DNA from: Bradyrhizobium quebecense
GTDB lineage: Bacteria > Pseudomonadota > Alphaproteobacteria > Rhizobiales > Xanthobacteraceae
NCBI RefSeq assembly: GCF_013373795.3
Contig: NZ_CP088022.1
Location: 2,790,001 to 2,854,000 of the forward strand
Direction: 5' to 3'
Length of the DNA: 64,000 bases
In this document: positions 17,002-21,276 of the stretch, piece after piece
How positions within the stretch are numbered: the stretch's first letter is position 1
How the letters are laid out: each line of letters starts with the position of its first letter
Notes under the pieces: generated by a model
Databases searched by the model: none
Seen by the model: only the letters and a program-made list of their open reading frames with translations
What the model was told of the DNA's origin: nothing
Made by a program: the position numbers and the translations under genes

Positions 17002-17114
17002 ATGTCGAGAATAAGGCGGCGGATCGTTCCCGCCGCGACTGCAATCCGCGTGAAACCTGACTGGCCGAGATGTTCCCACCCTGCAGCGCCCGGCCTGACG
17101 GCGTCCGTCATCGG

Positions 17115-18248
17115 ATGACTACCGCTCATGCGATCCGGCAAGCGGTGCTGCTGTGCGGGCTCGCCTTCGCGCTGGCGGCCTGCAGCTCGCTGCCGCGGAT
17201 GCCTTACGCGGCTGCCGACGCCGCCAATTCGCGGGTGCTCGATCTCGACGGGCTGCGCCGCTACGCCGACGAGCCGGCGTCCAAATTCCGGCTCGAGAAG
17301 AGCGACCGCGCCCCGATCAAGACCTATCTCGCCCTCTCCGGCGGCGGCGCCGACGGCGCCTATGGCGTCGGCGTCCTCAACGGCTGGACCGCGGCCGGCA
17401 ACCGCCCGAGCTTCTCGGTCGTCTCCGGTGTCAGCACTGGCGGACTGATCGCGCCCTTTGCATTCCTCGGCCCGCGCTACGACGATACGCTGAGGGAGGT
17501 CTACACGTCAGGGATCGCCGAAAGCCTGCTGCAGGACCCGAGCCTGATGCGGGTGCTGTTCGGCTCCGGCCTGTTCGGCAACAAGCGGCTCCGCGAGCTG
17601 GTGGCGCGTTACGTCGGCCAGGACGTCCTGAGCGAGGTGGCGCGCGAAAACGCCAAGGGCCGAAAGCTCCTGATCGTCACCACCGATCTCGACACCCAGC
17701 GCACGGTGATCTGGGACATGGGACGGATCGCCGCCGTCGGAACGCCCGAGGCGCTACAGCTGTTTCGCGATGTGATGGCGGCCTCCGCCAGCATCCCGCT
17801 GGTATTTCCGCCGATCATGATCGACGCCGAGGGTCAGGGCCGCCGCTTCCAGGAGATGCATGTCGACGGCGGCGTGACTGCGCCGGTCCTGACGCTGCCA
17901 GACGCACTGCTGTTTCGCGACCGTGCCTGGCCCGCCGATGGCCGCATGAACATCTACATCCTCGTCAACAAGAAGCTCGAGGGCAACTTCGAGCTGGTGT
18001 CGAACTCGACGATCGACGTCGCTTCACGCAGCATTTCCGCAATCACCCAGGCGCAGACGCGCTCGGTCATTCTCTCGACCTATGATTTCGCCCGGCGCAA
18101 CCGGCTGGGCTTCCATCTGTCCTACATCGAGCGCGACTATCCGGCGCCGGAAACCCAGGGCTTCGACACCGCCTATATGCGCGCGCTCTACCAGCACGGC
18201 TACGAGAAGGCCGCCGCGGGGCAGGCCTGGACCGCGACGCCGCCCTGA
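17115..18248 (+). CDS. Patatin-like phospholipase lipoprotein
   Basis: 377 residues from the ATG at 17115; the upstream 15 codons of the open frame are not a signal peptide. An N-terminal lipoprotein signal (LCGLAFALAACSS, lipobox LAAC) anchors it in a membrane. The patatin domain shows the oxyanion loop SGGGADGAYGVGVL, the nucleophile elbow GVSTGG (GxSxG) and the catalytic-dyad DGG in MHVDGGVTAPVL. The family cleaves acyl groups from lipids. It is followed after 95 bases by tetR in the same direction, and both genes are bracketed by matching operator-like sites, so the regulator probably controls it. Confidence 0.88.
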   Translation: MTTAHAIRQAVLLCGLAFALAACSSLPRMPYAAADAANSRVLDLDGLRRYADEPASKFRLEKSDRAPIKTYLALSGGGADGAYGVGVLNGWTAAGNRPSFSVVSGVSTGGLIAPFAFLGPRYDDTLREVYTSGIAESLLQDPSLMRVLFGSGLFGNKRLRELVARYVGQDVLSEVARENAKGRKLLIVTTDLDTQRTVIWDMGRIAAVGTPEALQLFRDVMAASASIPLVFPPIMIDAEGQGRRFQEMHVDGGVTAPVLTLPDALLFRDRAWPADGRMNIYILVNKKLEGNFELVSNSTIDVASRSISAITQAQTRSVILSTYDFARRNRLGFHLSYIERDYPAPETQGFDTAYMRALYQHGYEKAAAGQAWTATPP

Positions 18249-19299: not shown

Positions 19300-19371
19300 A
19301 CCTTTCTCGGCCCGCCCCTCGCTCTGCGAACGCGGGTCATGCGCGTGCACATGTTCAATACAGGTTCGACG

Positions 19372-19989
19372 ATGAGGACAGGACGATTGCGCGCACTGAG
19401 GCATTGGGCATTGGGAGCGCGGCTGCTTGCAACCGCTCTGCTGGCGCTGCCCTTCGCGTCGCCGGCCCATGCGATCACGAGCTCGGCTGCCGCCGCGCTC
19501 ACCCCGCAGGACAGTGACAGCGCGCTCGACGTACATGCGGTTCGCCGCGAGCTCGACAGCTTCCAGTCCGCCCAGATCTCGCTGCGCAAGGCGATGGCGA
19601 TTGCGGAGGCGCTGCACTCAGGCTCGATCACCGCCGACATCAGCTTCGACGGCGCGTCGGATCCCGCAGTCTACCGGGTCAAGACCATGCAGCAGAACCG
19701 CATCTGGCAGCATGCGATCGACGCCTCGACCGGCCAGGTGGTCGGCGGCGAGCCGCCTTCGCCGCTGGCCTCCCTCGGCGCCGAAGACCGCGACAATCTC
19801 GTCGTGCTCAGGGCGCTGCGGCATCGGCTCGCCGATGCGGTGCGCGTCGCCGAGCACACGACCTCGGGCAAGGCGATCAGCGGCGGCTTGATGCGCGAAC
19901 GCGGCAAGCTCAATTTCGTCATCGTGGTGCTGACGGGCAGCGACCTGAAAGAAGTGATCCTCGAGCCGCCCGGCGCGCGCCGGCGCTGA
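19372..19989 (+). CDS. Secreted PepSY-domain-like protein
   Basis: 205 residues from the ATG at 19372 (also possible at 19339 or 19351). The start is chosen so that the signal peptide reads MRTGRLRALRHWALGARLLA, with cleavage near AHA-IT. A PepSY-like unit follows (ISLRKAMAIAEALHSGSITA, PAVYRVKTMQQNRIWQHAID, ASTGQVVGG). A second stretch (LRHRLADAVRVAEHTTSGKA) may be a degenerate repeat. PepSY domains bind or inhibit partners in the periplasm; the partner here is unknown. Site 2 of the operator pair lies upstream, so it might belong to the TetR regulon. Confidence 0.7.
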   Translation: MRTGRLRALRHWALGARLLATALLALPFASPAHAITSSAAAALTPQDSDSALDVHAVRRELDSFQSAQISLRKAMAIAEALHSGSITADISFDGASDPAVYRVKTMQQNRIWQHAIDASTGQVVGGEPPSPLASLGAEDRDNLVVLRALRHRLADAVRVAEHTTSGKAISGGLMRERGKLNFVIVVLTGSDLKEVILEPPGARRR

Positions 19990-20043: not shown

Positions 20044-20072
20044 TTGACGGACGCCGATCTCTGCCGCATAAG
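20044..20072 (+). promoter_or_regulatory. Predicted sigma-70 promoter of the asd leader
   Basis: TTGACG at 20044-20049 and CATAAG at 20067-20072 with a 17-base spacer. A start point about 7-8 bases on falls at 20079-20081, that is at the A of the leader-peptide ATG. By eye only; the -10 is a 4/6 match. Confidence 0.5.
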
Positions 20073-20080
20073 TCCGCACC

Positions 20081-20152
20081 ATGATCACCGCGACCAAACG
20101 CACGACCAAAACCACCAAGCCCTCTGGGGCCTCGGGAGGCGTGCGCGCGTAG
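20081..20152 (+). CDS. Thr/Lys-rich leader peptide of asd (candidate attenuator uORF)
   Basis: A 23-codon frame, ATG at 20081 to TAG at 20150. It begins MITATKRTTKTTKPSG: six Thr and three Lys codons fall in the first 13 residues. Thr and Lys are end products of the pathway that asd feeds. No ribosome-binding site precedes it, and the predicted transcription start coincides with its ATG, as expected for a leaderless uORF. The 3' half (20126-20136) can pair with the 5' arm of the terminator that follows. Clusters of product codons ahead of a terminator are the hallmark of ribosome-mediated attenuation, as in enteric thr operons. Too short for ordinary gene callers. Confidence 0.75.
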   Translation: MITATKRTTKTTKPSGASGGVRA

Positions 20153-20212
20153 TCGGTCGTACAGCATCATCTCTACCCGAAGCCCCGCCTGATGAAGGTC
20201 CGGGGCTTTTTT
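20126..20212 (+). terminator. Attenuator of asd: terminator and competing antiterminator
   Basis: Terminator: AAGCCCCG (20180-20187) pairs perfectly with CGGGGCTT (20201-20208), followed by a run of six T (20207-20212), about 38 bases before the asd start. Antiterminator: GGGGCCTCGGG (20126-20136), inside the leader peptide frame, pairs with CCCGAAGCCCC (20176-20186) at 10 of 11 positions, using up the 5' arm of the terminator. The two structures exclude each other. Folding energies were not computed. Confidence 0.75.
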
Positions 20213-20250
20213 GTTGCCCGCGTCATGCTCAAATTCGAATGGAGGACAAA

Positions 20251-21276
20251 GTGAGTAACGATCCCGTCGTCGCGATTGTCGGCGTCACCGGCGCAGTCGG
20301 CGCCGAATTCATCGCCACCATGGACAAGCGCGGCTTCCGCGTCGGCAAGCTGAAGGCGCTGGCGAGCGCCCGCTCGGCCGGCAAGACCGTCAGCTTCCGC
20401 GGCAAGCCGGTCGTGATCGAGGAGTTGACCGAGCGCGCCTTCGAGGGCGTCGACATCGCGCTGTTCTCGGCCGGCAGCGGCATCTCGAAGAAGTTCGCGC
20501 CTGTTGCCGTGAAGTCCGGCGCCGTCGTGGTCGACAATTCGTCGGCGTTCCGGATGGATCCGAACGTGCCGCTGGTGATCCCCGAGATCAACGCCAACCG
20601 CATCCGCGACCACAAGGGCATCATCGCCAACCCGAACTGCGCCGCCATCACCGCGCTGGTGCCGCTGTGGCCGATCCACCGGAAGAACCGCATCAAGCGC
20701 GTGATCATCTCGACTTACCAGGCCGCGAGCGGCGCGGGAGCAGCCGCAATGGAGGAGCTCGTCGAATCCACCCGCGCCAATCTCAATGGACAGGTCTACA
20801 CCCCGAAGGTGATGCCACACCCCTACGCCTTCAACCTGTTCAACCACAACACGGCCATCGATCCGGAGACCGGCTACAACGACGAAGAGACCAAGGTCAT
20901 CAAGGAGACCCACAAGATCTTCGAGGACGAGAAGATCGCCGTCGGCGTCACCTGCGTGCGGGTGCCGGTGCTGCGCGCGCATTGCGAGACGATCACCTTC
21001 GAATGCGAGAAGCCGATCACCGAGGACCAAGTGCGCGCGATCATGGCGCAGGCGCCGGGCGTCAAGATCGTCGACGACCGCGCGAAGAACTATTTCCCGA
21101 TGCCGATCGATGCGTCCGGTCAGGATGACGTGCTGGTCGGCCGCATCCGCAAGGATCTCAGCGACCCCAGCGGGCACTCGATCTCGATGTTCGTCGCGGC
21201 CGATCAGCTGCTCAAGGGCGCCGCGCTGAACGCGGTGCAGATCGCCGAGCTGTTGCCCGAACGCGCAATGGCGTGA
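20251..21276 (+). CDS. asd: Aspartate-semialdehyde dehydrogenase
   Basis: 341 residues from the GTG at 20251, placed 5 bases after GGAGGA; an in-frame ATG at 20239 would overlap that ribosome-binding site. The enzyme reduces aspartyl phosphate to aspartate semialdehyde with NADPH, the branch point to lysine/diaminopimelate, threonine and methionine. Marks are VAIVGVTGAVGAEFI, FSAGSGISKKFAPVAVKSGA, the catalytic-cysteine region GIIANPNCAAI, the TYQAASGAG segment, and the substrate-binding histidine region HSISMFVAADQLLKGAAL. Transcription is probably controlled by the Thr/Lys leader and attenuator immediately upstream. A palindromic repeat separates it from the converging queA. Confidence 0.95.
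   Translation: MSNDPVVAIVGVTGAVGAEFIATMDKRGFRVGKLKALASARSAGKTVSFRGKPVVIEELTERAFEGVDIALFSAGSGISKKFAPVAVKSGAVVVDNSSAFRMDPNVPLVIPEINANRIRDHKGIIANPNCAAITALVPLWPIHRKNRIKRVIISTYQAASGAGAAAMEELVESTRANLNGQVYTPKVMPHPYAFNLFNHNTAIDPETGYNDEETKVIKETHKIFEDEKIAVGVTCVRVPVLRAHCETITFECEKPITEDQVRAIMAQAPGVKIVDDRAKNYFPMPIDASGQDDVLVGRIRKDLSDPSGHSISMFVAADQLLKGAALNAVQIAELLPERAMA

Follow-up and report, generated by a model that had tools for sequence, protein, structure and literature searches.

Background

The aspartate-family genes of the Escherichia coli thr operon are controlled through thrL, a threonine-rich leader with mutually exclusive hairpins, which carries Thr plus Ile codons, has its own ribosome site and governs thrABC. 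The leader described here differs from thrL in that it carries Thr plus Lys codons and stands before a gene for aspartate-semialdehyde dehydrogenase (asd). In rhizobia, rnTrpL is a leaderless attenuator RNA that starts at its AUG and has been termed dual-function (PMC10117765); the present locus, probably leaderless too, would share with rnTrpL/trpL the combination of a leaderless attenuator RNA and a leader peptide and differs from it in amino acid and target, which in the known system are tryptophan and trpE. SEP5 of Sinorhizobium meliloti is a small frame that is translated and sits in the 5'-UTR of a so-called aspartate dehydrogenase gene; six Thr and three Lys codons are clustered towards its 3' end, and a role as a possible leader peptide has been proposed for it; the passages that deal with it describe SEP5 as conserved in Sinorhizobium only and give no attenuator structure (PMC10117765). 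A Thr/Lys leader before an aspartate-pathway gene of a rhizobium has thus been proposed earlier, for SEP5, which corrects the initial annotation of the present locus on this point. Beyond that report, searches of the open-licence literature listed nothing on rhizobial Thr/Lys leaders at asd, Lys leaders at dapA or leaders at thrS, and the main text of a Bradyrhizobium japonicum start-site map contains none of the terms "asd", "semialdehyde" or "attenuat" (PMC4842269).

Here, we describe a predicted Thr/Lys attenuator in a 64,000-nucleotide window (the whole stretch of DNA that was analyzed) of the Bradyrhizobium quebecense genome, together with related leaders in the same genome, the genus and the order. 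In SEP5-type leaders the Thr/Lys cluster lies at the end of the frame, whereas in the leader of the window it lies at the start, before a second asd gene (asd2).

Results

The asd gene of the window is a second copy

The gene behind the leader (20251..21276, forward strand, GTG start, with the ribosome site GGAGG at 20241-20245) encodes an aspartate-semialdehyde dehydrogenase (NCBIfam PRK14874, 431 bits; TIGR01296, 405 bits), as had been proposed from the sequence; it is, however, a second copy and not the housekeeping one. When 60 relatives were searched, 35 of the 36 genus members gave two asd matches, at 84-100% and about 44-45% identity, the 36th (G032) gave only the match of about 44-45%, and each of 24 genomes of other families gave a single match at 41-46% identity; the second match in the genome of the window itself is 44% identical to the asd of the window. 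The region upstream of this genome's own housekeeping asd (L031) contains no Thr/Lys frame, and to speak of a new control point of the aspartate family as a whole therefore goes too far for this strain.

When the family was sampled more widely, asd2 was detected at E values up to 1e-110 in 104 of 391 genomes, of which 103 belong to the genus and one (G133) to a different genus; it was absent from four listed genus members. Bradyrhizobium stands in the title of 77 of the best 80 named relatives, which were taken from 573 confirmed stretches; the remaining three are a Bradyrhizobiaceae MAG, a Xanthobacteraceae MAG and one record titled Frankia. The last of these, Frankia sp. RB7 (L070), carries a leader typical of Bradyrhizobium before an asd2 that is 94% identical, and the record is probably mislabelled or mixed. 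Two genomes hold a second asd2 copy (L108 and L180 in the same genome; L181) with leader and terminator kept.

Upstream of asd2 lies a gene for a PepSY-domain protein (19339-19989) and downstream, on the opposite strand, queA, so that asd2 is probably its own transcription unit. At the Rfam gathering threshold, the window yielded one tRNA only, with no lysine riboswitch, T-box or other element at asd2. Elsewhere in the window, 17070-18248 encodes a patatin-like phospholipase that weakly resembles CBASS/anti-phage phospholipases and scores far under their cut-offs.

Predicted elements of the asd2 leader

All of the predicted elements lie on the forward strand. A -35 element TTGACG (20044..20049) and a -10 element CATAAG (20067..20072) are separated by a 17-nt spacer and end 8 nt before the ATG of a 23-codon leader frame, MITATKRTTKTTKPSGASGGVRA* (20081..20152), which is probably leaderless and carries six Thr and three Lys codons within its first 13 codons. 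The putative control codons 5-13 (20093..20119) comprise Thr5, Lys6, Thr8, Thr9, Lys10, Thr11, Thr12 and Lys13, with Lys10-Thr11 nearly invariant as AAA ACC. Hairpin H1 (AAGCCC-TCTG-GGGCCT, 20117..20132) is a possible competitor for the candidate antiterminator 5' strand, GGGGCCTCGGG (20126..20136), and a further hairpin, H2 (GCCT-CGGG-AGGC), occupies 20129..20140. The antiterminator 5' strand is complementary at 10 of 11 bases to the 3' strand CCCGAAGCCCC (20176..20186), which is common to the 5' arm of the predicted intrinsic terminator (20180..20212; stem 20180-20190/20196-20208, T-run 20207-20212). The leader frame with its codons, the promoter, the pairing at 10 of 11 bases and the terminator, which folds as claimed, had all been put forward in the initial annotation, and all are present in the sequence.

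The terminator arm appears in the predicted fold (z -1.4 against shuffles), and the full leader RNA is no more stable than shuffles (z 0.19); the leader stands above chance because it is conserved, not because of whole-leader folding energy. A simple promoter and terminator consensus scan returned neither the asd2 promoter (it returned no promoter at all) nor the asd2 terminator, the latter being missed because its bulged stem and long loop fall outside the scan rules.

Conservation of the leader, control codons, promoter and terminator

Across 183 asd2 loci, some of which are one genome reached by two routes and the later of which were picked for diversity, the leader frame was present in 182 (181 of 183 by pattern search, the two misses being inspected by eye) and the terminator with its T-run in all 183 (179 by pattern, four by eye); these leader counts are not independent, because the homologues are related. 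In one of the two misses, L117, the leader is intact and the terminator contains one G-U pair, a feature outside the search pattern that is also found in L110 and L114; in the other, L135, a one-base deletion 3' of the control codons causes a frameshift. The 179 loci with leader and terminator collapse to 134 distinct sequences, which encode 74 different peptides. Leader length is 24 codons including the stop in 122 of the 134 distinct sequences, and some of the 22- and 23-codon leaders are an artefact in that the search picked an internal ATG; L107 and L081 show one-codon length changes with the frame kept, and the gap from stop to terminator is 26-33 nt, with single-base variation.

Within the 24-codon leaders, codon 10 is AAA in 121 of 122, codon 11 is ACC in 120 of 122 and codon 6 is AAA in 120 of 122, and Thr at codons 5 and 8 is mostly retained through ACC/ACG swaps, so that the Thr/Lys codons named at the outset are conserved in related genomes. 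Lysine is encoded 297 times by AAA and 34 times by AAG in the 134 distinct leaders; the corresponding counts in the asd2 genes of 64 loci are 11 and 1195. Beyond the control codons, the peptide tail GGVRA is kept, and the residues at codons 15 and 18 vary.

The promoter, searched for as a -35 TTGAC with a spacer of 16-18 nt allowed, was matched in 129 of the 134 distinct leaders, with a spacer of 17 nt in 129 of 129, TTGACG in 127 and CATAAG as the -10 element in 118. The distance from the end of the -10 element to the ATG is 7-13 nt in 129 of the 134 leaders and 8 nt in 118 of 129. Two of the five unmatched promoters are present, with an internal ATG chosen by the search; L122 has a longer frame, and L108 and L181, both mentioned above, have a different sequence where the -35 element would stand. 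None of four Shine-Dalgarno-like words tested occurred in the 18 nt 5' of the ATG in any of the 134 leaders. Together, this spacing and the missing Shine-Dalgarno-like words support the leaderless start originally suggested: initiation is probably leaderless, with the transcript start at or next to the AUG.

Position-dependent folding of the leader RNA

A ribosome scan was computed in which the RNA left free at each codon was folded, with protection taken to reach 12 nt downstream of the first A-site nucleotide. Before the terminator 3' arm is made, the antiterminator, scored as pairing of the GCCCC strand with the leader, had P > 0.5 in every one of the 134 leaders for a ribosome at any of codons 5-11; the share was 99% at codon 12, 38% at codon 13, 80% at codon 14, 40% at codon 15 and 0-1% at codons 16-24, a profile that is not monotonic, codons 13-15 being mixed across the 134 leaders. 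Of 34 leaders (every fourth one), 23 had an open run as far as codon 12 and 11 as far as codons 14-15, and the window sequence changes from open to blocked between codons 12 and 13; varying the protection from 9 to 15 nt moved the end of the open run by about one codon. The initial annotation had been troubled that a ribosome at the leader stop would cover little of 20126-20136 and had suspected that position within the frame matters instead. In the computed folds, a ribosome at control codons 5-12 leaves the antiterminator free and one from codon 16 on blocks it; since codons 5-12 set the switch and H1 can compete from codon 13, the difficulty with the geometry is answered.

At equilibrium with the terminator complete, the mean P of the terminator across the 134 leaders was 0.66-0.79 at codons 5-9, 0.45 at codons 10-11 and 0.84 at codon 12; the antiterminator peaked (0.55) with the ribosome at the nearly invariant codons 10 and 11, and in the window leader it was retained at codons 5-8 (0.98). 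As the finished terminator is on average favoured at most stall positions, the switch would have to be kinetic. With no ribosome, the complete terminator had a mean P of 0.95, and the antiterminator, as long as the 3' arm of the terminator is still unmade, one of 0.54 in the 134 leaders and 0.997 in the window sequence, so that in this strain folding alone cannot clearly separate an untranslated from a stalled transcript.

The computed antiterminator pairing became weaker on synonymous recoding: its energy was -17.9 kcal/mol in the real leaders versus -13.8 kcal/mol in recoded ones (n = 134). Individual p values were at most 0.05 in 51% of the 134 leaders and at most 0.1 in 72%. At Thr11, P exceeded 0.9 in 89% of a set of 37 leaders versus 27% of recoded ones. 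Pair counts and covariation were assessed against shuffles in 45 aligned homologues in a fixed register. The terminator stem was paired in 95.8% of cells and H2 in 87.2%; at one H2 pair, 10 of the 45 sequences carry changes in both partners, possibly through a single inherited event. H1 was paired in 68.5% of cells (shuffles, 65.8%), with a covariation score under that of the shuffles, and the antiterminator in 77.0% (shuffles, 77.3%), with no covariation. By eye, the register of H1 and of the antiterminator moves from clade to clade with complementarity kept; the terminator 5' arm has two partners and is therefore not free to vary, and clades shift register instead. The alternative pairing proposed at the outset is hence supported by energy, ribosome position and recoding, but not by compensatory covariation in a fixed register.

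Related leaders at dapA-like and thrS-like genes

A covariance model built from 45 asd2 leaders was searched against the genome of the window and gave, besides asd2, matches at G000:C1:5332437 (E 4.8e-5) and G000:C1:3018320 (E 0.0033), as well as five weaker ones (E 0.16 to 2.2). One of the weaker matches, L352, was rejected, as it resembles an ordinary terminator and not a leader.

At the better match (L350 1501-1625; G000:C1:5332437-5332561), the leader MITTSCAVVSSKKAPLPGTRDRAR and a terminator precede a gene of the DapA family (TIGR00674, 202.4 bits, just below the cut-off of 206; Pfam DHDPS), which was found in 57 of 60 genus genomes (58 matches). To our knowledge, lysine-coded attenuation at a dapA-like gene is unusual. 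An adjacent Lys pair (SKK, always AAAAAA) and a terminator were present in 30 of 30 loci, these being the best-scoring 30 of the 58 dapA-like matches. Over these 30 leaders, the Lys codons gave a mean P of 0.99 (first) and 1.00 (second). The two preceding codons gave 0.98 and 0.86, and P fell to 0.40 and then 0.06 at the next two codons downstream. The open run also takes in the two or three codons upstream of the lysine pair; the second Lys was the last open codon in 24 of 30 loci, including two with Lys at codons 16-17, and the open run reached further in 6 of 30. After recoding, only 2% exceeded 0.9. For four genus genomes without asd2 (G362, G378, G399 and G032), the model matches the dapA-like leader instead; in G395, also a genus genome without asd2, the best model match (L359) has no dapA-like leader.

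The other match (L351 1501-1610; G000:C1:3018320-3018429) is a leader containing LTTATT, with a terminator, before a gene for a 400-residue threonyl-tRNA synthetase whose confident Pfam matches are limited to its catalytic core and an anticodon-binding domain and which seems to lack the N-terminal domains. This thrS-like gene was found in 9 of 60 genus genomes and the leader with terminator in 8 of these 9, mostly with a T-run of four. Its open run is shallow (mean P 0.58-0.77), starts from codon 3 and is shut after codon 13, the last Thr codon being 14. For dapA-like and thrS-like leaders alike, the complete terminator is favoured throughout at equilibrium (about 1.0). With a Lys leader at the dapA-like gene and a Thr leader at the thrS-like gene, the leader codons match the amino acid served by the gene. 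A possible parallel to the thrS-like gene is thrZ of Bacillus subtilis, a second threonyl-tRNA synthetase gene induced on threonine starvation, along with other second synthetases that starvation induces; control there runs through a T-box RNA, whereas a peptide-coding leader and a terminator are found here.

Thr/Lys leaders at asd elsewhere in the order

The order was sampled with 64 loci (63 housekeeping asd and one asd2-like; 24 best-scoring and 40 selected, from 188 genomes matched), in which we sought frames up to 350 nt upstream with at least 7 Thr/Lys within 10 codons, or 6 at a looser threshold. Thirty-three of the 64 loci reached 7, versus none on the opposite strand and a mean of 0.03 in 30 shuffles, and K+T ranked top among 190 residue pairs (33), with A+T next (19). 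By hand tabulation at threshold 6, housekeeping-asd Thr/Lys leaders occur in 16 of 25 sampled families of the order. In the window's own family, one of 68 housekeeping asd loci reached 6 (L325, with little resemblance) and none 7; in a class-level set, two of 31 loci reached the threshold (L283 and L290).

In family f24 (which includes L207 and L434), 44 of 50 asd loci (L404-L453) reached 6, in a count made without a shuffle control, with frames of up to 70 codons. The tail KTTAKTTTKTV is exact in nine of the 50 and occurs as variants in many others, and one f24 leader matches a Mesorhizobium hypothetical protein. In L434, from a 6.9-Mb genome, this tail holds exactly six Thr and three Lys, the numbers given for SEP5. 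Judged by this match, SEP5 would stand at the housekeeping asd, whereas the leader of the window stands at the second asd, has 23 codons, is probably leaderless and is followed by an intrinsic terminator. The likeness to f24 tails suggests that SEP5 is an asd leader, of a type far wider than Sinorhizobium.

A run of five T between leader and asd is missing in 38 of 40 other-family regions (39 housekeeping, one asd2-like), so that a similar sensor there would act through another output. Sequestration of the ribosome site was considered as such an output and was not significant overall in these 40 regions (mean z -0.5, 15% below -2). A recurrent CTCCCC with two possible GGGGAG partners was noted by eye in other-family asd leaders. 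In family f50, L186 and L362 (G500) carry an asd2-like gene of 62% identity with a Thr/Lys leader, whose region contains a GCCCCG/CGGGGC hairpin without a T-run.

Discussion

The predicted asd2 element is very probably a ribosome-mediated transcription attenuator that senses both threonine and lysine. Transcription would begin at or next to the leader AUG, and a shortage of charged tRNA-Thr or tRNA-Lys would stall the ribosome at codons 5-12, where it can cover the start of H1 while 20126-20136 stays free. This strand would pair with 20176-20186 as the latter emerges, the terminator would come too late, and readthrough into asd2 would follow. With both charged tRNAs plentiful, the ribosome would advance and mask 20126-20136, and the terminator would form. 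As far as sequence can tell, the initial annotation was correct on the mechanism as well as on the observation.

Several other accounts of the same elements deserve weighing. Sensing of threonine only, with the lysine codons serving the RNA or the peptide, would fit the excess of Thr over Lys codons (5-8 Thr in 65 and 2-3 Lys in 72 of the 74 distinct peptides) and leaders such as that of the outgroup L042, with six Thr and one Lys, or L181, with one Lys; we consider it unlikely, however, given that, among 122 leaders, AAA encodes Lys6 in 120 and Lys10 in 121 and that a Lys leader of the same build stands at the dapA-like gene in all 30 best-scoring loci. A role in trans, as reported for Sinorhizobium peTrpL/rnTrpL, might also belong to the peptide or to the short RNA left by termination, attenuation then being only part of the function. 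The tail GGVRA, conserved past the control codons, and the dual-function label of leaderless rnTrpL (PMC10117765) would agree with this account, but the conserved tail overlaps H1, H2 and the antiterminator strand, so that RNA pairing could account for its conservation, and the residues at codons 15 and 18 vary; such a role in trans seems rather improbable, though not far-fetched.

The form of the output bears on a further account, in which control is exerted by translation or by Rho and not by the intrinsic terminator. The 38 of 40 other-family asd leader regions without a run of five T would suit it, yet all 183 asd2 loci have a terminator with a T-run and ribosome-site pairing in those 40 regions was not significant, which leaves it little likelihood. 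Lysine riboswitches and T-boxes regulate such genes in other bacteria, and an element of this kind at asd2 would make the frame incidental; with the control codons conserved and a tRNA as the window's only Rfam match at the gathering score, we regard this as very improbable. Hardly credible, finally, is a chance frame amid a constitutive promoter and a terminator: hairpins are frequent in GC-rich DNA, the whole leader folds like shuffles and the L135 frame is lost after the control codons, but the leader is present in 182 of 183 loci and the order-level shuffle and strand controls speak against chance.

Conclusions

The asd2 attenuator would not stand alone, as the dapA-like (Lys) and truncated thrS (Thr) elements of the same build would make up a set with it, the codons of each leader following the gene product, and the three switches suggest a small amino-acid starvation circuit in Bradyrhizobium. 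We are evenly divided on a broader reading, in which Bradyrhizobium would run a starvation circuit of spare enzymes in which the signal is spelled out by the codons of the leader (Thr plus Lys for asd2, the branch-point enzyme, Lys for the dapA-like gene, Thr for the truncated threonyl-tRNA synthetase), the dapA-like and thrS-like leaders being probably leaderless too and the housekeeping asd exempt. The rest of the order would, on the same reading, place a similar sensor at the housekeeping asd, mostly without an intrinsic terminator, giving one peptide signal with two outputs, and the short RNAs and peptides may act in trans. Joint sensing of Thr and Lys at asd would mean that aspartate-family control in alphaproteobacteria can be read by the ribosome and need not rest with a riboswitch or with an allosteric kinase only. 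The orphan small protein of Sinorhizobium would then have an explanation, and the second asd and the extra dapA- and thrS-like genes of Bradyrhizobium would have a reason.
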